Assembly (NCBI GenBank): GCA_018302815.1
Contig: JAGVZE010000018.1
Coordinates: 1 to 44,634, forward strand
Source of the DNA: Candidatus Woesearchaeota archaeon
GTDB taxonomy: Archaea; Nanobdellota; Nanobdellia; Woesearchaeales; ARS49
DNA length: 44,634 bases
Direction of reading: 5' to 3'
Shown: piece by piece, positions 2 through 44,634 of the stretch
Position numbering within the stretch: the first letter of the stretch is position 1
How the letters are laid out: the number at the start of each line of letters is the position of its first letter
The notes under the pieces: model-generated
What the model was told of the DNA's origin: nothing
The model's input: the letters and a program-made list of their open reading frames with translations, nothing else
Databases searched by the model: none
Translations under genes and position numbers: made by a program

Positions 2-586
2 GTTATGTGGCTCTGTCAGGTGATTTTAGGTAATTTTGAGACAATGAATGGTAAAGGGATGCCTCTTGGGAATTTAACATCTCAGTTTTTCGCGAATGTG
101 TATTTGAATGAATTGGACCAATTTGTGAAGCACGTTTTGAAAGAGAGATGTTACGTCAGGTATGTTGACGATTTTATTGTTGTGGGGAGCGACATTCGAC
201 AGTTGCAAGACGTGAAGAGAAGGATAGATGCGTTTCTTAAGGAAAGACTTGCGTTGGACTTGCATCCATGGAAGTCAAGGATAGTGAATGTTAACAGAGG
301 GATTGATTTTCTGGGGTTTCGTGTATTCCCTAAATTTCGACTATTGAGGAAGAAGAACGGTAGAAAGATGAGGAAAAAGTGGAGTGCTCTGAAGGAGGAG
401 TACTTATCACATAGTATTTCTGTTGATACATTATACGCTGGCGTGCAAGGGTGGTGCGCCTATGCATCGAATGCCGCCACGTTCAAGATGAGGAAACAGC
501 TGGTTGAGGAGTTTGATGTATTGAGGGGCGCGGATTTATCAACAATAGAGTTGAATCAACTTCTAAAAAAATCACAGGGCATTTGA
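2..586 (+). CDS. Reverse transcriptase, DGR-like, C-terminal part (cut by window edge)
   Basis: RNA-directed DNA polymerase fragment, open to the left edge; the N-terminal half and the true start lie outside. Visible: motif 4 as GKGMPLGNLTSQ, catalytic YVRYVDDF (the YxDD box, about residues 52-59), motif 7 region IDFLGFRVFP (about residues 100-109), then a basic thumb-like C-terminus containing GWCAYASNAATFKMRK. Group II intron enzymes normally have QGxxxSP in motif 4; LGxxxSQ is the form known from diversity-generating retroelement RTs. No maturase or HNH endonuclease domain follows, also as in DGR enzymes. The stop lies 9 bp from the convergent lipoprotein gene, so no template repeat fits downstream; it would have to be upstream, off-window. 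RT identity is very sure; DGR type is likely. Confidence 0.9.
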   Translation, partial: VMWLCQVILGNFETMNGKGMPLGNLTSQFFANVYLNELDQFVKHVLKERCYVRYVDDFIVVGSDIRQLQDVKRRIDAFLKERLALDLHPWKSRIVNVNRGIDFLGFRVFPKFRLLRKKNGRKMRKKWSALKEEYLSHSISVDTLYAGVQGWCAYASNAATFKMRKQLVEEFDVLRGADLSTIELNQLLKKSQGI

Positions 587-595
587 TTCTGTAGC

Positions 596-1531
596 TTATT
601 CCCCTGAACTCTTTACCGCAAAGCTGCTTTGTATCAATTGTTCATAGTCATATATTGCTTCTAGATTGACCAGCTGTTCAAAGTCAGTGTTCGTATTTAC
701 TTGTTGTGTGCAGCTAAGCGTGTTCGTTCCGCTTCGTAATGTTACGAATCCTTCTGCTCCGTTTGCCGTGCTTTCAAGTCCTGTGCATTGTACGCCGGAA
801 AGTCCTGTGTTAACAACTACGTATACTCGTCCTTCTTTTTGCCGGTCGTCCTTGTTGCATTTGCTGTTTCGCTCAAACACTCCGCCTGTTCCTGAATTTC
901 GAACTTCCACGGTGAATCCTACTCTGTCTTTTGCGCGTGTGTTTTCTTTGAATGTTGCGAACTGCACAGGCGCTCCGCTGTTGTGTAATTGCTTATCCTG
1001 ATTAATCTCACAAATGCCGCCTGCTTCAGGCGTTAGTAAATCCTCTCTAATGCATAATTTACTCACAGCTTTCGTTCTATATAGGTAGCACGCGTTCGCG
1101 CGTACTGTGAACTGCGCGGTAGCGCCGGTTATCAATCCCTTGTGGTTGAGTGCTGTGAATTCGACAAATGTTGAAGGAGGAGCGAGTAGGTTTCCTTGAG
1201 GGTCTTTTCGTAGTTCAATTACGTCGTCCGGCGCGTTCAAGCTGAGCTGTGCTTCAGTCTTGTCAAATTCTGTAGGATTGAATCCTGACAATTTCACAAG
1301 CACGTTCTCTTTGCTCACTAGAGTCTCGCCCTTATTCTCAAGTTTTACGATGATGTCAAAGGGGTCCCCGGCTCCGTCGAATACGTCTTTGCGTAATTCA
1401 GAGAATTCAAGTGATAGTCCTGCTGTTCCGCCTGCGAATGGACTGTCCAAAACAACTCCTTTTGGTTTGGCTGAGCCTCCAGCGCAAGCTACTAGAAGAA
1501 TCAATAATGTGAATGCAATGTATCTCCTCAT
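596..1531 (-). CDS. Putative secreted lipoprotein, paralogue C of three
   Basis: 311 residues. The N-terminus is a short basic stretch, a hydrophobic core and LLVACAGG, a lipobox-like cysteine near residue 16, so it is probably exported and lipid-anchored on the outer face of the membrane. The mature part looks beta-rich. It shares with the two upstream genes an order of elements: an N-terminal VKLENKGETL-like strand, an ACYLYRT motif, a cysteine-bearing ICE element, then NSGAPVQF (NxGAPV in place of SQGAPI/GQGAPV) and a VEVRNSGTGGVF strand. This suggests tandem immunoglobulin-like or CARDB-like modules, but I do not recognise a named family. Last gene of a five-gene minus-strand operon; tail to tail with the RT. 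It is the most diverged of the three copies. Confidence 0.8.
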   Translation of the reverse strand: MRRYIAFTLLILLVACAGGSAKPKGVVLDSPFAGGTAGLSLEFSELRKDVFDGAGDPFDIIVKLENKGETLVSKENVLVKLSGFNPTEFDKTEAQLSLNAPDDVIELRKDPQGNLLAPPSTFVEFTALNHKGLITGATAQFTVRANACYLYRTKAVSKLCIREDLLTPEAGGICEINQDKQLHNSGAPVQFATFKENTRAKDRVGFTVEVRNSGTGGVFERNSKCNKDDRQKEGRVYVVVNTGLSGVQCTGLESTANGAEGFVTLRSGTNTLSCTQQVNTNTDFEQLVNLEAIYDYEQLIQSSFAVKSSGE

Positions 1532-1601
1532 TTTATCTATTTCCTTGTCTGTTTTATGTTATAAATGTATTGTCATACTATCGTATTTTCCTTCCAACTT
1601 C

Positions 1602-2531
1602 CTACGATAATGGCCGTATCTCTACTTGTTTTGAGATGCTTTGTCTGTATCCGTAGCGTAGTATGACGTTGATTGGGGTCAGGTATGGGCTTTGTCCTTG
1701 TATGTTGGAGAGTTCGCAGAATAGTTGCGCTTGTCCGTTGCTTAGTCTTAAATGTCCTGTTGAATCTAGCGGTTTGCAGCTTTGTCTTATGCTGATTCCG
1801 CTTAAGGTTACATCGGCTACTTGAACATAGTCTATTTCGTCGTAGCCTAGGCCGGAGCCGTATGGGCTGCATTTGCTTAAGAACTGGGCGCCGTTCTTGA
1901 AGACGTTTCCGCCTCCTGCATTGGATATTGAGATTACAAATCTTGTTCTTCCTGGCGCGGGTTCTACGCTAATAGAACTAACCGCGATTGGAGCTCCCTG
2001 CGAACCAAGCCCAACTGTTGTTGGCGTGCATATTTTTTCTATGCTTGCAGCTGCGAATGGATTGGGATCTATGCAGGCTTGTCCGGATGCGACTGTTTCG
2101 TAATTGTAGCAGGCGGTTGCAAGGATTGTTGGCTGGTATTTGTCGATTCTTTTGTCGGTTAAGGCAAGTACTGTTCCTTTCCAGTCGAGCATATCGAATC
2201 CTCCTCTTGGAAGGTATGGTCCTCGTCCGTCAAGTATTGGTATTGCTTTGCCGTCTGTTCCTATTCCTGTGATTATGTTGTGGTCGAATCCGGATAGATA
2301 AATGCGGTCCGATCCGCCTCCTATTTTGCTTGTGCCTTTGTTTTCTACTTGCACAACGACGTTGAATGGGTCGCGGTCAAAGAGTCTGTTTGGAGGCAGG
2401 TTTGATAGGAATTCAAGGCTTATCGCTTGTGTTCCTGTTCTAAAGTCCTGTGGTTGTTGTGGCTGCGTTCCGCTTTGGGGTTGGCAGGCTACAAGTAGTA
2501 TGAGTAATGTTATCAGCGCCGCTTTTTTCAT
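1602..2531 (-). CDS. Putative secreted lipoprotein, paralogue B of three
   Basis: 309 residues from the ATG at 2531. The frame is open further upstream to 2717, but that extension runs through the neighbouring gene, while the 2531 start gives MKKAALITLLILLVACQPQ, a clear lipoprotein signal with cysteine at residue 16. The mature protein starts with a Gln/Pro-rich linker, then a FNVVVQVENKGTS strand, ACYNYET, ACIDPNP, SQGAPIAV and a FVISISNAGGGNVF strand, all echoed in the neighbours. Four or more cysteines suggest disulfides outside the cell. Function unknown; the repeated NKG/NxGxG strands suggest immunoglobulin-like folds used for surface display or binding. Confidence 0.8.
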   Translation of the reverse strand: MKKAALITLLILLVACQPQSGTQPQQPQDFRTGTQAISLEFLSNLPPNRLFDRDPFNVVVQVENKGTSKIGGGSDRIYLSGFDHNIITGIGTDGKAIPILDGRGPYLPRGGFDMLDWKGTVLALTDKRIDKYQPTILATACYNYETVASGQACIDPNPFAAASIEKICTPTTVGLGSQGAPIAVSSISVEPAPGRTRFVISISNAGGGNVFKNGAQFLSKCSPYGSGLGYDEIDYVQVADVTLSGISIRQSCKPLDSTGHLRLSNGQAQLFCELSNIQGQSPYLTPINVILRYGYRQSISKQVEIRPLS

Positions 2532-2575
2532 AGCGTGTATTTTTGTTTGGTGATTATTTATAGTTTGTGGTGTGT

Positions 2576-3463
2576 TCATGTGCATTCCTCTTGGCCTGGT
2601 ATCTTTGTGATAGTAATTGGCAATATTGTGTTTGTGACGTATCCGTAGTTTAGCGTTACTGAAAGCAAGGTTTGGTACGTTCCTTGTTCTTTTCCTGAAT
2701 ATCCTTGGGCTGTGCATTTGACTTTGGCTTCTTTTCCTGATTCGAGGGTTATCGCTTCAGGCTGGCAGATTAGCGGTTCTGCTTGCAGGTCCGCCATTAC
2801 TTGCACTGTGCCTTTTAGCGGTTGTTTTGTCGTGCAGGCGGCTTGCGCGTCGTTTGAGCTTATGACTTTTCCGTTGCCAAGGTTGGCAATTGATATTATG
2901 AAGCTTGGGGTGACGCTGTCTTGTATTGGTTCCATGATTGGTTCTACGCGGGTAACCGCTACTGGCGCGCCTTGTCCGCCTACGCTAACGGTAGAAGGTC
3001 TGCAGACTTTGTTTGGATTTGTGTTTTGTACGTCTGGGTCGATGCAAACCGTGGTGGTAGAGAACGTTTCGTATGGATAGCAGGCTTGGAGTATTATTGG
3101 TGTCGAGTAGCTTTCAAGTTGTGGCGGAAGCCCTGTGTTTTTGACGCTAAATTGGAGTTGTTGGATTCCTCCTTGAGGGTTGAACTTGGATTTTCCTTCG
3201 AGTTGGAACGTGTCGCTTTTTTTGGGCGCGTAAAGGACTTGGTCTTCGACTATGAACGTGTAGACTCCGCGCGTAACGTCGCTCGTTCCTTTGTTTGAGA
3301 GTCGTGCGAGTATGTTGGCTTGCTGGCACATGATTATGCTTGATGGTGGGTTGACAAATGATGGTTCAACCGCGATTGTTCCTGTGGCGATGTCTTGCGG
3401 CATAGGCACTCCTTGCTGCCCGCATGCGCAGATTAGTAGAAAGATTAGCGCGAGTTTCTTCAT
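2576..3463 (-). CDS. Putative secreted lipoprotein, paralogue A of three
   Basis: 295 residues. Signal MKKLALIFLLICACGQQ has a cysteine pair suited to lipidation. Mature features: ARLSNKGTSDVTRGVY, ACYPYET, VCIDPDVQ, VCRPSTVSVGGQGAPVAV, FIISIANLGNGKVI, in the same order as in the next two genes downstream. The start ATG overlaps the stop of the upstream membrane protein by 4 bp (ATGA), implying coupled translation. Conservation of Cys spacing and the GQGAPV block across the three genes argues for tandem duplication followed by divergence. No enzymatic motif is visible. Confidence 0.82.
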   Translation of the reverse strand: MKKLALIFLLICACGQQGVPMPQDIATGTIAVEPSFVNPPSSIIMCQQANILARLSNKGTSDVTRGVYTFIVEDQVLYAPKKSDTFQLEGKSKFNPQGGIQQLQFSVKNTGLPPQLESYSTPIILQACYPYETFSTTTVCIDPDVQNTNPNKVCRPSTVSVGGQGAPVAVTRVEPIMEPIQDSVTPSFIISIANLGNGKVISSNDAQAACTTKQPLKGTVQVMADLQAEPLICQPEAITLESGKEAKVKCTAQGYSGKEQGTYQTLLSVTLNYGYVTNTILPITITKIPGQEECT

Positions 3464-5172
3464 ACATTCAGCTCTTTCTTTTTTATGGAAACTCCTGTTT
3501 CTTTGTGGATTCTGAACGTGTATTCTGCTTGTGCTTTGAAGCTTCTGATGGCAAGAGGCGCTTGTCCTAGAAGGTCCTCTGTTGACGCAATTGAGGTTTG
3601 TACGCGTATGGTTTTGAATGGTTTTTTAAGTTCAGAGGGAGGGAATAGTTTTGCGATGATGTCTTCTGCCATTATGATGCAGTTATGTTCTTTTTGTTCT
3701 GTTGTGAAGCAAGATGATATTGGGATTCCATCTACGCTTTTGATTTCGATGCCGGGCGGTGCTGTGATTTCGAGCTGGTTCATTTTGACTACTTGTCCGT
3801 CTTGCCAGTTTCGTTCTAGCGTGATGCTTAGTGATGGTCCGAATTCTGTTCCTGTGACTACTGCGATTGGCTGTGGTCCAACGCCGATTCCTATTCGCAT
3901 GGGTCCTGGCGTGAAGATTGCGGCAGGATTCTTGTCTGTTATTTTGAACGCGTCAAGCGGGTCTATTTGGTCGCGTCGATATGCGCGTATTGAGTCTTGG
4001 TGCATGAAGTATGTCTTTAGGAATGAGTTTGTGGTGAATGTGAACTCTGCTTCGAGGCTTATTTGGGCAGGTCCTCCTTTTTCAGCTTCGACTAGTTTTT
4101 CTGGGTTTATTAGGCAGTCGAGTGATATGCTGTCGTATTCTTCTATTGTGAAGCTTTCGCTTGGTCTGATGTCTCCTTCGTTTGTATCGCACCCGTCAGG
4201 TTTGAACTTGCAGCATTTGAGCGCGATTTCGATGGGTTGTTCTGTTTTGAATGTTTCTGCGCGAAGTGTTGCGAATACGTCGATTGGTTGGTCGTACGGC
4301 ACGACATCGGAGGTGGTATCCATATTATCCAAGAACACTCCTAGTGGTCTTTGTTGCTGTGCTTCGACTCCTTCTTCATAGTTTCCTGTCGCGACAAGGA
4401 TTTGTCTTTCGACTCCTTTTTGCGCGCCTGTTATGAATGAGCTTGCTGTTGAAGTTATGTCGCTCCAAGCTTTTTGTTGTCCTTTTATTGCAAGGTCGAG
4501 CGGCGTTCCCGAAGTTAAAAGCGATGGCGCGAATTCAAAGACTGCGGTTCCTGTGACTGCGAATATTATTAGCACGATAAGAAAAGTTCCTGCTCCTGCG
4601 ATTGCGAGTGTTCCTATTAGGAAGAATACGATGAATATGCTGACGAATATGTGTGATTTACCCGGAAGTGTTGAAAGCAAAAACATAGCCATGATTCCAA
4701 ATGCGCTTATCGCAGCTGCTTTTAGCGCGTGCGCTGAGCCTGTTGGGTTTAGTTTGTGCCAAACTCCCAGTAATATCACGAGCAGAATGACAAGTCCGCT
4801 TGTCATCGTGTTGAGTCCTAGTTTGTTGAGTACAAAATATATTGCGGCTCCAAGCGCGGTGATTAATATTAGTGGCAAAATCAAGTGTCCTGATGTTCCG
4901 CTTGGAGCTCCCGAAGATCCTGGGCTGGCTCCTGCTCCAAAAAGTCTGCTTAAAAGTCCTGATTCTGCGGCAGCGCCTGCAGCTTCAGCTGCCATTCCAA
5001 ACGCGCCTACTACTGCGGCTCCCACAGGAGGGACGAATATGCAGACTAGTATGAATATGATGAACAGCACCAGCATTACAATCCAAACCCAGCCGGGAAG
5101 GAGCCATATTGCGAGTGCGAAGAGTATGAGAAATATTACGCTAATGGAGACAAGTGCTTTGACAATTCCCAT
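3460..5172 (-). CDS. Polytopic membrane protein with large C-terminal extracellular domain
   Basis: 570 residues. About the first 225 residues hold hydrophobic segments in clusters: two close to the N-terminus, then an Ala/Gly/Ser-rich loop, then several more (roughly residues 95-225). The rest is soluble and beta-rich, with cysteines (IALKCCKFKPDGCDTNEG) and a C-terminal KKKELNV tail. It lies 1 bp after its upstream partner and overlaps the downstream lipoprotein gene by 4 bp, so the operon is tightly coupled. It may be the membrane hub that the three lipoproteins and the single-pass protein work with; that is inference from position only. No transporter or protease signature recognised. Confidence 0.8.
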   Translation of the reverse strand: MGIVKALVSISVIFLILFALAIWLLPGWVWIVMLVLFIIFILVCIFVPPVGAAVVGAFGMAAEAAGAAAESGLLSRLFGAGASPGSSGAPSGTSGHLILPLILITALGAAIYFVLNKLGLNTMTSGLVILLVILLGVWHKLNPTGSAHALKAAAISAFGIMAMFLLSTLPGKSHIFVSIFIVFFLIGTLAIAGAGTFLIVLIIFAVTGTAVFEFAPSLLTSGTPLDLAIKGQQKAWSDITSTASSFITGAQKGVERQILVATGNYEEGVEAQQQRPLGVFLDNMDTTSDVVPYDQPIDVFATLRAETFKTEQPIEIALKCCKFKPDGCDTNEGDIRPSESFTIEEYDSISLDCLINPEKLVEAEKGGPAQISLEAEFTFTTNSFLKTYFMHQDSIRAYRRDQIDPLDAFKITDKNPAAIFTPGPMRIGIGVGPQPIAVVTGTEFGPSLSITLERNWQDGQVVKMNQLEITAPPGIEIKSVDGIPISSCFTTEQKEHNCIIMAEDIIAKLFPPSELKKPFKTIRVQTSIASTEDLLGQAPLAIRSFKAQAEYTFRIHKETGVSIKKKELNV

Positions 5173-5173
5173 T

Positions 5174-6319
5174 TCATTCCGCCTTTACCGTTATGCGCAC
5201 TATGTGGAGTTCGGTTAGCGGGTCTAGTTGAAGGTAGTTGTTTCCTTCTTTTATGAGCTCGCTTATGTCTTCTTCGTAGATGTGGTTTTCTTGGTCGATG
5301 ACGTCGTATTTGCCGTTGATGTTTAGGCGCGCTTGTTTGTCTTCGTCGTCATCTACGAATTCTATTCTAAGGACAACGTTTCTTTTGTTGTCTAGTACTG
5401 CGTTGTATAGTGTGCTGTTGATTTTGAAGTAGTCTATGAATGGTTTTACTGGTTTGAGTATGGTGCGTACTCGTATTTGTTCGACGCGGTAGCTTCCTTG
5501 GTTTATTTTGAAGCTGATGGTGTTTTTTCCGTCGCGCAGTTCTTCTTTGTCTAGGTCCGCTCTGTTGAGTCCTTCGCATGCAGGGATTGCGGAATGGATG
5601 ATTCTATCGTTGAGTTCTATTGATAGTGTTCCTACTTCGTTTTGATCGCATAGTGGGTAGAAGTCAAGGAACGCGGTGTCGAGGTTTTCTTTTTCGACAT
5701 CGGATATTGTGAACGTGCTTGTCGCGGCTTGCCGCGCAGCGTCAGTTACTTCTCCGATTACTTTCACGTCGAACAATTCGTAGCGAGTGCGTGAGAAGAA
5801 TCCTCCTTTGACATAGAATTCGAGCTGGTTCGCGCCTGAAATGAGTGTTTTTGGAAGTGTTATTGGCGGCGGGTTTTGTGTGGCTACTGTGCTTTCGTAG
5901 ATTGTTTGCCCGTTGAGTGTTATGACGAGTGTTCCTGCGCGCGTGGGCGCTTGAAGGCTTAAGATGACGTTGTCTGTTTGCGCAAGTGATGGGACTGCGA
6001 ATATTATTGTCTTGCGCTGTTCAGAGAACCAGCCTTTTCGTACTGTGAATGGGTTTTCTGAAGATAGCACGACTGCGTTTTTGGTTTCGCTCAAGAATAC
6101 GCTTGGTATGTCGTGGTCGAATAATGTGCGTTTGGTGAACGATAAAAGTCCGGGTGTTTCATCTAGGAGTGTGGATTTTGTGTCTGAGTCTGTGTAGTTT
6201 TCTCCTTCAAGAAGCTGTTGTCTTTCTTCTGCGGGTAAGAATAGGATGTAGAATATGAATAGTAGGGTGATTATTCCTATCAGCGTGGCTGCGGGGCTTC
6301 CTGTTGGTTTATCTGCCAT
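5174..6319 (-). CDS. Single-pass membrane protein with beta-rich ectodomain
   Basis: 381 residues. A short cytoplasmic head (MADKPTGSPAAT) is followed by one membrane span (about residues 12-29, GIITLLFIFYILFLP) and a long exposed domain. Repeating phrases such as LSLQAPTRAGTLVITLNGQ, LSIELNDRIIHSAIP and ARLNINGKYD look like successive jelly-roll or carbohydrate-binding-like strands with NG turns, with possible internal duplication of a roughly 100-residue unit. First gene of the five-gene operon; AAGGTGA ribosome-binding site 4 nt before the ATG, TATA box at 6357-6365. Function unknown; envelope structural or adhesive role is the best guess. Confidence 0.8.
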   Translation of the reverse strand: MADKPTGSPAATLIGIITLLFIFYILFLPAEERQQLLEGENYTDSDTKSTLLDETPGLLSFTKRTLFDHDIPSVFLSETKNAVVLSSENPFTVRKGWFSEQRKTIIFAVPSLAQTDNVILSLQAPTRAGTLVITLNGQTIYESTVATQNPPPITLPKTLISGANQLEFYVKGGFFSRTRYELFDVKVIGEVTDAARQAATSTFTISDVEKENLDTAFLDFYPLCDQNEVGTLSIELNDRIIHSAIPACEGLNRADLDKEELRDGKNTISFKINQGSYRVEQIRVRTILKPVKPFIDYFKINSTLYNAVLDNKRNVVLRIEFVDDDEDKQARLNINGKYDVIDQENHIYEEDISELIKEGNNYLQLDPLTELHIVRITVKAE

Positions 6320-6356
6320 CGTTCACCTTTTTTCAGGAGTTATTCAGGAATAAGAC

Positions 6357-6365
6357 TATTTAAAG
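6357..6365 (-). promoter_or_regulatory. TATA box for the 6319-596 operon
   Basis: Minus-strand CTTTAAATA about 40 nt before the ATG at 6319, implying a short leader that carries the AAGGTGA ribosome-binding site. Confidence 0.6.
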
Positions 6366-6378
6366 GTTTGGTGCAAGA

Positions 6379-6387
6379 CATATATAC
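6379..6387 (+). promoter_or_regulatory. TATA box for the Pelota gene
   Basis: CATATATAC centred 27-28 nt before the ATG at 6411. The spacing puts transcription start at or next to the ATG, so a leaderless mRNA is expected. Confidence 0.65.
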
Positions 6388-6410
6388 TTAGCGCGTGTTT
6401 TTGAGAGCCG

Positions 6411-7460
6411 ATGAAGATTGTTTTGAAGAATCTTAAGCAGGGTGAAATCAAGCTTGCGGTAGAGACCTCTGATGATGTGTGGTATTTATCGCAGTTAATT
6501 GATGCGGGTGATCGTGTTAGTGGCAAGACTGTGCGTAAGATTAAGGCAACTGAGGAAGCCGACCCGTTAAAACGTGCTGTTTTTATGGCAATTGTTGTTG
6601 AAAAGGTCGATTTTGTGGGTGATGAGCTTCGGGTCGCAGGCAAGGTTATTGACGGTCCAGAGGACGTGGCAAGGGGTAGTTTTCACACTTTTTCGATAGA
6701 GCCGGGCGTGGTTTTTTCGTTGATTAAGGATGAGTGGCTTTCTTATCAGCTTTCGCGTCTTGATGAGGCGTGCGAGCAGAAGCGTTCTAATATTTTGGTT
6801 TGCGTTTTTGATAGGGAGGAGGCGATTTTTGCTTTACTTAAGAAATCAAAGCCGGAGATTATTGCTCATATTAAGGGTGATGTTGAGCGTAAGCGTGTTC
6901 AGACCAATGTGAAGTCGAGTTTTTATGAGCAGGTTGTGAAACAATTGGAGGAGTATGACAAGCGTTATTCTCTTGACGTTATTGTCATCGCAAGTCCTGC
7001 GTTTTGGAAAGAGGAGTTGCTTAAAGTCGTGAAGAATGACGCGTTAAGAAAGAAGCTTGTGCAGGCTACGTGTTCTTCTGTTGATGAGCGCGCAATTGAT
7101 GAAGTGCTTAAGCGTGATGAGATTCGCCACGCGGTTAATAAGGAGCGTTCTGCGCTTGAGATGCAGCTTGTTGATGAGGTTCTTTCAGAGATTGCGAAGA
7201 AGGGCGCTGTTGTTTACGGCGTTGCCGCGTGTGAGTCGTCTGCCGCGCAGGGTGCTGTCTCAAAGCTTCTCATCACTGATTCTTTGATCAAGCGCACGCG
7301 CGAGGAAGGCGCGTTCCAGCGCATCGATTCTATTCTTCGCTGCGTCGATAAATCAAAAGGCGCAGTGATTATTGTTTCCTCCGAGCATATGGGCGGAAAA
7401 CGTTTGGACGGCCTTGGCGGCATCGCTGCTCTGCTAAGATACAAACTTTCGTATGAGTAG
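6411..7460 (+). CDS. pelA: Pelota/Dom34 mRNA surveillance factor
   Basis: 349 residues, the usual archaeal Pelota length. Pelota binds stalled ribosomes in the A site and, with aEF1A and ABCE1, splits them (no-go and nonstop decay). Visible: the N-terminal Sm-like domain beginning MKIVLKNLKQGEIKL, with DDVWYLSQLIDAGD and RKIKATEEAD; the central eRF1 domain 2-like part with VCVFDREEAIFALL and VIASPAFWKEELL; the C-terminal eRF1 domain 3-like part with AKKGAVVYGVAACESSAAQGA, ending SSEHMGGKRLDGLGGIAALLRY. No GGQ motif, as expected for Pelota as opposed to aRF1. Monocistronic, leaderless. Confidence 0.96.
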   Translation: MKIVLKNLKQGEIKLAVETSDDVWYLSQLIDAGDRVSGKTVRKIKATEEADPLKRAVFMAIVVEKVDFVGDELRVAGKVIDGPEDVARGSFHTFSIEPGVVFSLIKDEWLSYQLSRLDEACEQKRSNILVCVFDREEAIFALLKKSKPEIIAHIKGDVERKRVQTNVKSSFYEQVVKQLEEYDKRYSLDVIVIASPAFWKEELLKVVKNDALRKKLVQATCSSVDERAIDEVLKRDEIRHAVNKERSALEMQLVDEVLSEIAKKGAVVYGVAACESSAAQGAVSKLLITDSLIKRTREEGAFQRIDSILRCVDKSKGAVIIVSSEHMGGKRLDGLGGIAALLRYKLSYE

Positions 7461-7511
7461 TTGCGGTATAGTTCTGACGCCTGCGGCTTGCCCTGCGTTT
7501 CGCGTTCGCTT

Positions 7512-7697
7512 CTAAATCAGTTTTAGTTCTTCTGATAGGTCTTCTGTTGAGTAGGACGAGACGAATCCTTTGTCAATAAGGTAGTGTTGGAAGTCCCACA
7601 GGGTGAGGCTTGCGCGGTGGGCGGCTTCGGTGAGCGTTATTTTTCCTTCGCGGTAGAGGTTTGCTGCTCGTTCTTTGTTTATGTTTTTAACGATCAT
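7512..7697 (-). CDS. UPF0175-family small DNA-binding/antitoxin-like protein
   Basis: 61 residues. The core RAANLYREGKITLTEAAHRA followed by LTLWDFQHYLIDKGF is the UPF0175 pattern: a helix, a second helix with TEAA, then a third with WDFxxxL, resembling a small helix-turn-helix. Family members often sit beside PIN-domain toxins as presumed antitoxins. No toxin partner is seen here: its neighbours are Pelota (convergent) and the variable-protein gene (divergent, 96 bp apart). It could be an orphan antitoxin or a local regulator of the neighbouring gene; the latter is speculative. Confidence 0.75.
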   Translation of the reverse strand: MIVKNINKERAANLYREGKITLTEAAHRASLTLWDFQHYLIDKGFVSSYSTEDLSEELKLI

Positions 7698-7761
7698 CAG
7701 TGGATTATGATTTGAATGTTGAAGATAAATCTTTTGTCAAACTTGGTTCGTTTTCTCGAAA

Positions 7762-7770
7762 TGTTTATCT
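7762..7770 (+). promoter_or_regulatory. TATA-like box for the candidate DGR target gene
   Basis: TGTTTATCT centred about 28 nt before the chosen ATG at 7794, matching the leaderless spacing seen at several genes in this window and supporting that start over the upstream in-frame ATG at 7716. Confidence 0.45.
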
Positions 7771-7793
7771 ACTTCTTTGCGGTTTGTTTCATT

Positions 7794-8591
7794 ATGGATG
7801 AGCGTTTGCGTCGTTTGCAGAGGTTGGTTGCGGCGGGTAGTGATCCTGTTTATGTGAGGGAGTTGCGTTCTGAGTTGAAGCGTGTTGGTCAGGGTGCTGT
7901 TTTGGATTTGGGTTTGCCGCACAGTTGGGAGGTTGTTGGTGGGACGAATGTTGCGTATGGTCAGCCGCTTGTCGCGTTGCGTGGTTTGTGCGCGGGTGAT
8001 GATGGTTTGCATCCTTTTGTTCAAGGTTTGGCGCGTCCGCTCACTTTCAAGGAGACTATTCAAGCTAGAATTAACCAATTCGAGTATGAGGGCGTTGCGA
8101 GTTTGTGGTCGTCGTGGCTTGATACGAGCAGTGCTATTGTTTATCAAAAAGGAACGACGAAGTTTCGGATTGTTTCAATGAGTGCTGCTTTGCTCAATGA
8201 TGTTCCTGCTTCGTTCAGGGGCGTGTTTTTGCCGGTGGCGTATGAAGATTTTAGTAGTTTTAGTGAGTTTGACGTTCAGGATGGTGATGATGTGTATAAT
8301 CAGGAGTTGACGCCAGAACAGGTGCTCAAGCATAAGGGTTGGCTTGCGGCGGTCGAGGGTGATAGGAATTTGTTGAGGAGGTATTCTAATATTGTTTTTG
8401 GACAGGTTCAAGGTGGTGTTGCGATGGCTTTTTGGACTGTTCACAGGCAAGATGCGCAAGGAAGATGGGCGTATCCAACGCAGAGTCAATTGCGGGCGTT
8501 GTGCGCCAACGATCTTGTTAACTACTGCAATTGTATTGGCTACAGTTATCTTAACAGCTTTACCCGTTTCGCTCGAGTGCGTCCGCTATGA
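7794..8591 (+). CDS. Candidate DGR target (variable) protein, MDERLR-type N-terminus
   Basis: 265 residues from the ATG at 7794. The frame is open back to 7716, but the TATA spacing and the MDERLRRLQRL start, shared with the protein at 16148-16945, favour 7794. No signal peptide. The middle is beta-rich (TTKFRIVSMSAALL, FRGVFLPVAYEDF). Near the C-terminus, GWLAAVEGDRNLLRRYSNIVF and MAFWTVHRQDAQGRWAYP precede the final hypervariable-looking stretch ending FARVRPL. The last 24 codons before that ending all finish in C or T, the mark of a DGR variable region. Such regions usually sit at the extreme C-terminus of a C-type-lectin-like ligand-binding fold; I cannot confirm that fold by eye. Intracellular location is implied by the lack of an export signal. 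Confidence 0.75.
   Translation: MDERLRRLQRLVAAGSDPVYVRELRSELKRVGQGAVLDLGLPHSWEVVGGTNVAYGQPLVALRGLCAGDDGLHPFVQGLARPLTFKETIQARINQFEYEGVASLWSSWLDTSSAIVYQKGTTKFRIVSMSAALLNDVPASFRGVFLPVAYEDFSSFSEFDVQDGDDVYNQELTPEQVLKHKGWLAAVEGDRNLLRRYSNIVFGQVQGGVAMAFWTVHRQDAQGRWAYPTQSQLRALCANDLVNYCNCIGYSYLNSFTRFARVRPL
8502..8573 (+). other. Putative DGR variable region (VR): uninterrupted NNY codon run
   Basis: Twenty-four consecutive codons end in a pyrimidine, whereas 16 of the 20 codons just before and 4 of the 5 sense codons just after end in a purine. The run encodes 13 of the 15 amino acids that NNY codons can specify (only Pro and His missing) and keeps four AAY codons (8508, 8520, 8529, 8553). Adenine-specific mutagenesis of AAC/AAT codons copied from a template repeat produces exactly this: the first two bases vary, the pyrimidine third base is kept. 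The following bases to 8588 (encoding RVRPL) would be the invariant end where mutagenic homing initiates. No template repeat is seen in the window. Confidence 0.65.
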
Positions 8592-8614
8592 AGTGCGAGT
8601 TCTTGTAGTCCATT

Positions 8615-8670
8615 CGTCGTCCGTCCCACCGTCGTCCGTCCTACTTCCTTCCTACTGCCGTCATCCGTCT
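8615..8670 (+). repeat. Short direct repeats CGTCGTCCGTCC
   Basis: CGTCGTCCGTCC occurs at 8615-8626 and again at 8630-8641, a 15-bp period, with a degenerate third copy CGTCATCCGTCT at 8659-8670. It starts 24 bp after the stop codon of the candidate variable protein. Function not known. Confidence 0.7.
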
Positions 8671-8790
8671 GCCAACTTCAATCTACTCTCTTCAATCACC
8701 AATTTTTCAGACGCTAAAAACTTAAATACTCTTGGCGAAGAAATTCAGCTTACTTCAGAGTAGTAATTCCCCGCTGACGTGCGAGGGACG

Positions 8791-8819
8791 ACAACCAAAA
8801 CATTTTAATATCTGGTTGT
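8791..8819. promoter_or_regulatory. Inverted repeat enclosing a TATA box (TrmB-gene operator/promoter)
   Basis: Perfect 7-bp arms ACAACCA (8791-8797) and TGGTTGT (8813-8819) flank the TATA-like CATTTTAATAT at 8801-8811. A dimeric repressor bound here would block TBP. The next gene encodes a TrmB-type winged-helix regulator, so autoregulation is the simple reading. Confidence 0.55.
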
Positions 8820-8855
8820 TTTACCTCATGTTGATAACAAAAGTGTGTCACTGGT

Positions 8856-8875
8856 GGCGCGCAGTGAATCGCGCC
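8856..8875 (+). other. Leader hairpin before the TrmB-type gene
   Basis: GGCGCG (8856-8861) and CGCGCC (8870-8875) form a perfect 6-bp GC stem with an 8-nt loop, 9 nt before the GGGGGGAGG ribosome-binding site. It may tune translation; no T-run follows, so it is not an obvious terminator. Confidence 0.45.
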
Positions 8876-8897
8876 AAGAAAAAGGGGGGAGGAAACA

Positions 8898-9707
8898 ATG
8901 ATTGTTAAAGATGACTTTTTGAGTAAACTGCGCAGGTATTTTGTCTTGAACTTGTATGAGGTCAAGATTTGGACTGCGCTTCTTTCACGTGGTGTCGCGA
9001 CTGCTGGCGAGCTTTCTGATATTGCGAATGTTCCAAGAAGCAGAAGTTATGATGTTCTTGAAAGCCTTGAGCGGAAGGGTTTTGTCGTGATGAAGCTTGG
9101 AAAGCCCATCAAATATATCGCTGTTCCTCCGTCTGAAGTTCTTGAGCGTGTCAAGAAGAATTTGCACGAGGAAGCATCAGAGCATATCAAGCGCTTAGAA
9201 GATCTGAAGACAACTGAGGTTTTGGGCGAGCTTAATTCTTTGCACACGCAGGGTATCGAGCTTGTCGAGCCAAGTGAGCTTTCAGGTAGTTTGCGTGGAA
9301 GGCATAATCTTTATTCTCATTTGGAGCTTGCGATTCGCAACGCCCAGAGCAGTGTTACGCTTGTGACGACTCCTCAGGGCCTTATGCGTAAGGTTGAGGG
9401 TTTCAAGCCTCTTTTCGAGAAGCTTAAGCGCAAGGGTGTTAAGGTTAGAATTGCAGCTCCGCTCACTAAGGAGACGAAGGATGCTGTTGCTGACCTTGGC
9501 GATGTTGCCGAGATTAGGCATAGTGATCAGAAGGCGCGTTTCTGCATTGTTGATGGCAAGGAATTGGTGTTCATGATTATGGATGACCAGAATGTCCACC
9601 CTACGTATGATGTTGGTATTTGGGTGAACACTCCTTTCTTTGCTTCCGCGCTTGAGAGCATGTTCAACATCGCGTGGAAGAGCATGAAGGCTCCTTCTTT
9701 CAAATAA
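8898..9707 (+). CDS. TrmB-type transcriptional regulator
   Basis: 269 residues. N-terminal winged helix of the TrmB type (about residues 1-75): LNLYEVKIWTALLSRGVATAGELS, then NVPRSRSYDVLESLERKGFV with the recognition helix, and IKYIAVPPSEVLERV as the wing. A helical linker follows (LHEEASEHIKRLEDL), then a PLD-like/effector domain with VTLVTTPQGLM, KGVKVRIAAPL and FCIVDGKELVFMI. TrmB-family proteins sense sugars or other metabolites and repress or activate nearby genes. It is alone behind its own promoter with a palindrome over the TATA box and has an unusually strong ribosome-binding site. Its effector cannot be told from sequence. Confidence 0.88.
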   Translation: MIVKDDFLSKLRRYFVLNLYEVKIWTALLSRGVATAGELSDIANVPRSRSYDVLESLERKGFVVMKLGKPIKYIAVPPSEVLERVKKNLHEEASEHIKRLEDLKTTEVLGELNSLHTQGIELVEPSELSGSLRGRHNLYSHLELAIRNAQSSVTLVTTPQGLMRKVEGFKPLFEKLKRKGVKVRIAAPLTKETKDAVADLGDVAEIRHSDQKARFCIVDGKELVFMIMDDQNVHPTYDVGIWVNTPFFASALESMFNIAWKSMKAPSFK

Positions 9708-44375: not shown

Positions 44376-44634
44376 CTGTTGCTTGCTTTTGGCGAATCTG
44401 ATGAGGATGTCTGCTGCGTCATCGCTTAATGCGAAAGTTCCAACCAACTCATTTAGCGTATCCGAGTTCAAGCTTATGGGGAGTAAATTGACTCAGAAAG
44501 GGCCGGTTCACAAAGTTTGTGCCGTTTTCCCGCTGCAACCGGGTGTGGGACAGAATTGTGCTATCCTAGCCAGTAAAGATTGTGCCACAGGGACGTGAGC
44601 ATGTTGGCGGTGTCTATTCTGTCTGGTCTTTTCT
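44376..44634. other. Unresolved window end
   Basis: No gene can be called. The plus-strand frame 44383-44598 lacks recognisable content and a ribosome-binding site. On the minus strand a short open stretch 44370-44492 translates to a protein-like end (LNSDTLNELVGTFALSDDAA, then ILIRFAKSK), but an in-frame TGA at 44493-44495 closes it. The rest (44496-44620) contains short direct and inverted repeats, including CACAAAGTTTGTG and two copies of ATTGTGC, compatible with a structured RNA or a decayed gene. Confidence 0.3.

Follow-up and report, generated by a model that had tools for sequence, protein, structure and literature searches.

The window, a stretch of 44,634 nucleotides, is the entire contig C20 of the 26-contig, 1.55-Mb genome of a DPANN archaeon (G000), and the assembly holds no sequence to the left of its first base. 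The named organisms closest to this host are Woesearchaeota and other DPANN archaea. At this left end lies the 3' half of a reverse transcriptase (RT) gene of a diversity-generating retroelement (DGR), and further to the right, flanked by unrelated housekeeping genes, lies a gene of the kind that such elements diversify. A DGR copies the transcript of a template repeat (TR) into cDNA, making errors at adenines, and this cDNA then replaces the variable region (VR) of target genes; the mechanism here would be the same. The features are as follows.

1 to 99, no strand: assembly-fork overlap, shared base for base with the start of contig C15; a repeat with the TR and the 5' half of the RT gene, missing from the assembly, would lie to its left
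2 to 586, plus strand: 3' half of the DGR RT gene, 194 aa, from motif 4 (LGNLTSQ) and motif 5 (YVDD) onward; the 5' half is missing past the contig end
7,794 to 8,591, plus strand: target gene, 265 aa, with a predicted C-type-lectin fold like that of AvpA; it belongs to a family with at least nine copies in the genome
8,491 to 8,579, plus strand: VR, with gap-free homology to the TR on contig C34 of a related genome, G013
8,502 to 8,573, plus strand: run of 24 NNY codons, the footprint of adenine-directed mutation of AAY-type codons
8,565 to 8,579, plus strand: 3' end of the VR, CGTTTCGCTCGAGTG, encoding RFARV; candidate IMH region by analogy with known DGRs
8,592 to 8,640, plus strand: site at which sister targets carry a hairpin; the window keeps only the left-flank motif TGCGAG, and the hairpin is gone

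The RT fragment had been noticed initially from its LGNLTSQ and YVDD motifs, and it is real: the reading frame from 2 to 586 is open, contains MPLGNLTSQF and YVDD and matches RVT_1 with an E-value of 3e-11. Its closest sequence match in the PDB is 8ub7 (E 4e-25), a 328-aa reverse transcriptase that equals the product of the BPP-1 brt gene in length and that we take to be this protein, and PHROG 1423 matches the RT at 2e-53. Motif 4, of the [ILV]GxxxSQ form, reads LGNLTSQ in the window RT and its DGR relatives, as opposed to QGGIISP in the group II sequences, whose QGxxxSP form the window lacks. A second RT copy, 78% identical, is found on contig C15, whereas an RVT_1 profile search of the host genome returned neither a third RT nor an RT 5' half. 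In a tree built by quick search, in which the window RT is represented by its 3' half only, the two copies join the C34 RT of G013, a genome of the same family as the host (SH-aLRT 87), and then the C16 RT of G013 (93); BPP-1 and ANMV-1 fall within the clade that holds them, and group II falls outside it. The phylogenetic placement proposed in the initial annotation thus puts the 3' half inside the DGR clade and apart from group II, and the DGR type claimed there is upheld by the motif, the 8ub7 match, PHROG 1423 and the tree. Group II, retron and DRT identities were rejected. The RT at the left end of the window is of DGR type and one of two DGR RTs in this archaeon.

C20 and C15 open with an identical stretch of 99 bases. 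Exactly 99 terminal bases are common to C4 and C21, likewise to C1 and C11 and to C10 and the far end of C15, and at most contig ends of the genome 96-99 bp are shared with another end; we infer that an assembly graph of the k=99 type forked at these shared ends. By our reading, the C10/C15 ends correspond to the N-terminus of a target gene and the C1/C11 ends to a target C-terminal part. C4 and C21 each hold a target gene oriented toward the contig end, and their last 143 nt align to the VR-TR spacer of both G013 cassettes (74-75% and approximately 70%; E 1e-13 to 1e-22), stopping about 56 nt short of the expected TR start. In G013 the DGR cassette is intact with the TR at the orthologous place, and in the relatives the TR ends approximately 515-595 bp ahead of the point equivalent to base 1 of the window. 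The initial placement of the TR to the left of base 1 is probably right, on the strength of sequence homology, although the assembly itself lacks the repeat, which is expected just past the ends of C4 and C21; searches of the host genome with two guessed TRs returned VRs only, and exact patterns from both fork ends had no match in viral contigs. In the simplest picture, the TR would be missing because the assembler collapsed a single repeat that comprised it and the 5' half of each RT gene; C4 and C21 would lead into this repeat, and C15 and C20 out of it. The direct targets of the two cassettes are most likely those on C4 and C21. Ahead of the TR, the spacer (L013:1-147 on the minus strand, L063:7509-7701, L064:6777-6958) is conserved between genera, begins with a run of 8-11 G and has predicted hairpins; it is possibly a structured 5' part of the TR RNA, the covariation being weak in the three sequences folded. 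Two further recurrent contig-end sequences, starting with GGGTGTGGGACAGAA and common to many ends of the host genome, including 44,536-44,634 of the window, are probably insertion sequences with that terminal repeat.

The target gene could start at an alternative upstream ATG at 7,716, while its homologues favour the start at 7,794. That it ends in a run of 24 NNY codons had been reported initially and is correct, the run being longer than any other in all six reading frames of this stretch, where the second longest has 19 codons. A chance origin of the run was rejected, both by this length difference and by the codon-position reversal described below. The further proposal that the 3' end is a DGR variable region is sustained by the gap-free match of 8,491-8,579 to the C34 TR of G013, in which 11 of 26 template adenines but 8 of 63 other bases are mismatched; the test uses the TR of a relative instead of the host's own and is modest for the window VR alone (p 0.003). 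The same TR was compared with the VRs of sister targets on C21 and on C24, a 218-kb contig without RT that holds targets 14 kb (C24_14) and 50 kb (C24_50) from its start. Mismatches amount to 19/26 adenines and 7/63 other bases in C24_14 (p 2e-8), 14/26 and 7/63 in C24_50 (p 5e-5) and 13/26 and 8/63 in C21 (p 4e-4); the C4 VR, which has a one-codon deletion, was left out of this ungapped comparison. When the five sister genes are compared over the 18-codon VR core, they differ at codon positions 1, 2 and 3 in 92, 64 and 20 of 176 codon pairs, compared to 227, 187 and 442 of 1,810 codon pairs upstream of the VR in the same genes (Fisher p 3e-25, with pairs that are not independent). The pattern in the VR core is the reverse of ordinary coding divergence. 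A seeded scan of 168 related loci found TR/VR pairs with adenine mismatches in 114, as opposed to 19 in which the mutable base would be C or G.

A PDB search with the target sequence alone gave nothing useful. The AlphaFold2 model built from 11 sequences (mean pLDDT 68, pTM 0.69) has a sole significant PDB match, AvpA (5ioo; E 1.5e-7, TM 0.69 by target length), the variable protein of a Nanoarchaeota DGR with a C-type-lectin fold (PMC5006420). Since a profile of the 11 target sequences reached AvpA only at E 0.31, with the VR end aligned to AvpA in this weak match, the fold assignment rests on the predicted model, which suggests an AvpA-like C-type lectin. DGR targets are recognised by a C-type-lectin or Ig-like fold with the VR in the binding face, and the model (pLDDT 68) agrees with this; the RFxGV-like beta5 strand encoded by the IMH in AvpA-like proteins has its counterpart in RFARV. 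Such a protein would presumably serve in binding partners, hosts or rivals. A target homologue at L135:4036-5244 carries an apparent J-domain (HPDKGG) fused at its N-terminus.

At least nine genes of the host genome end in a VR; they are spread over eight contigs and fall into two groups, one with C20 (the window), the two C24 copies, C21 and C4, and the other with C15, C3, C1 and C11. Upstream third positions differ by 20-27% among C24_14, C21 and C24_50, while third positions of their VR cores differ at 0-1 of 18; pairwise, these VRs differ at 1-2 of 63 non-adenine sites and at 9-20 of 26 adenine sites. Sequence comparison of this kind suggests that, once the genes had diverged, a single template overwrote their VRs repeatedly. 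The window VR is the odd one out among the group members compared, with about 7-8 of 63 non-adenine differences from its sisters, some of which match the G013 TR (site 5 and CTT). N-terminal deletions or frameshifts occur in the sister targets C4, C21, C24_14 and C24_50 (L013, L014, L061, L062); the 5' ends of C24_14 and C21 are rescuable by an overlapping second ATG (ATGGATGATCG), those of C4 and C24_50 not easily. Among the copies, the one in the window has the best-preserved N-terminus. Two adjacent paralogues of the target N-terminal part, without VR or RFAR end, lie at L058:3450-5002 (approximately 100.4-102 kb on C24).

In C4, C21 and the two C24 genes the stop codon is followed immediately by GCGAGCCCGAAGGGCGAGCC, a GCCC-GAA-GGGC hairpin, and C11 has one there with a compensated stem, GCTC-GAA-GAGC. 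The hairpin pattern has five occurrences in the genome, all at these targets, and is absent after the VR genes of the window, C15, C1 and C3. Nanoarchaeal DGRs have been described with G-purine-A loop hairpins, and efficient retrohoming in BPP-1 seems to depend critically on a hairpin that follows the VR (PMC4372165). The hairpin is an auxiliary feature, and its absence at the window target counts against present activity, not against membership of the family. The link between hairpin loss and drift is not strict, since C15 has no hairpin yet shows no clear drift compared to C11, and the rule was formed on the same data with small numbers. Window positions 8,592-8,700 and similar places in L059 and L060 are intergenic runs rich in CCGTC/CGTCCTAC words, which follow several targets, recur in the genome and occupy the lost-hairpin sites of C20 and C1.

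Taken together, with a probability of roughly 0.85, the window begins with the end of a DGR RT whose 5' half was lost with the TR in a collapsed repeat, and its target gene is a remote, probably retired member of a family of at least nine. The hairpin-bearing copies would be overwritten repeatedly from one template, while the window copy would be a remote target that keeps the DGR footprint, has lost the hairpin, has drifted at non-adenine sites and is served rarely or no longer. As the window VR is odd at non-adenine sites and lacks the hairpin, active targeting by this RT is doubtful; the intact N-terminus of the target is a counterpoint, being odd for a relic. The initial suggestion that the RT and the gene at 7,794-8,591 belong to one DGR is supported only in part: both are of DGR type, but the targets of the cassettes are most likely those on C4 and C21, and the window VR is drifted and without hairpin. 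More tentatively, and with somewhat less than even odds, one or two near-identical cassettes would rewrite the dispersed lectin family in trans at four or more live loci, which lie on three contigs and of which two are at least 14 kb from any RT, and the hairpin after the stop codon would act as a licence whose loss retires a copy, as in the window.

It appears unlikely, though worth weighing, that the window target is still active in trans through this RT or its twin, possibly with a second TR that differs at a few bases. Neither end of the open reading frame is damaged, the NNY core is complete, two RT copies leave room for two TRs, and the agreement of some window differences with the G013 TR fits; a second TR could also explain the differences of the window VR. 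Against this stand the missing hairpin and the non-adenine differences, at 6-8 sites, and as the two visible cassette edges are alike, a very different second TR is not expected. Less probable still is that all unlinked VR genes are fossils, copied when target and cassette were duplicated together, now apart from RT and TR and not rewritten any more. This would account for the N-terminal damage of several copies and for the missing hairpins of C20, C1, C3 and C15, but it is at odds with C24_14, C21 and C24_50, in which the VR core stayed nearly uniform at third positions and at non-adenine sites while the upstream parts diverged. The view that the locus is not a DGR, but a group II or other RT beside an unrelated low-complexity NNY stretch, can point to the top NCBIfam model for the RT, which is a group II model, yet scores 76 against a 300-bit cut-off; with the motif, the tree, the TR/VR pairs of close relatives and the homologous TR against it, this view is already refuted.

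Other genomes add little on remote action. In G013 the remote VRs (C1, C5) misfit its C16 TR at 8-10 non-adenine sites and therefore give no proof of action in trans, and in G038 none of the four VRs is more than 6.5 kb from the TR, so that this genome is no test of it. In the latter (L065, G038:C1:406000-423000, at 806-9256) genes for a MoxR-like AAA ATPase and a vWA-like protein, both named by eye, alternate with the four VR targets of a single TR, an arrangement that recalls conflict-system partners as discussed in multicellular bacteria; a similar vWA-like gene precedes the target in L089. Whether RT-less VR genes of nanoarchaea are fossils or remotely rewritten was left open when they were described (PMC4372165). 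Here one gene family shows both apparent classes, copies with a hairpin and a VR uniform save for adenines, and copies without a hairpin and with a mostly drifted VR, and as both stand side by side in one genome, read data could answer this question directly. The many target copies indicate which genes the element apparently still serves and which seem to be retired. Surveys would undercount such DGRs, as TR and RT are repeats that drop out of short-read assemblies and a large metagenome survey states that remote targets are not detectable by it (PMC8144416).

DGRs abound in DPANN archaea (PMC8421398), as the initial annotation had stated, and two nanoarchaea with at least four DGRs each, plus VR genes without RT, were described in 2015 (PMC4372165). 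A multi-target case like the present one may already be recorded in a 2017 survey of CPR and DPANN DGRs. With the Nanoarchaeota (DUSEL4) DGRs and AvpA (PMC4372165; PMC5006420) the system shares the DPANN host, several DGR loci and RT-less VR genes in one genome, the AvpA-type lectin fold as predicted, a hairpin close to the VR with a loop of three bases, G-purine-A, and variable codons of the AAY type. It differs in that the VR lies at the extreme C-terminus with the hairpin past the stop codon, whereas AvpA has a 46-residue tail after the VR that contains the hairpin, and in that at least nine targets belong to one family, whereas DUSEL4 has four distinct cassettes and two partial ones. As in BPP-1, the order would be target VR, TR and RT on one strand, and the RT motif is [IL]GxxTSQ; in BPP-1, however, avd lies between VR and TR, where the visible spacer here is conserved, non-coding and probably structured, and there is one target instead of many dispersed ones. 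Thiohalocapsa PB-PSB1, a bacterium in which trans diversification was explored with reads (PMC10907252), likewise has many target loci, some of them incomplete and candidates for trans diversification, but its RT belongs to a different group and its diversification was shown by metagenomic reads, whereas the present case is known from genome sequence alone. The element is therefore a DGR of the known DPANN type, whose machinery is not new, and it is the dispersed family and the hairpin contrast within it that are informative.
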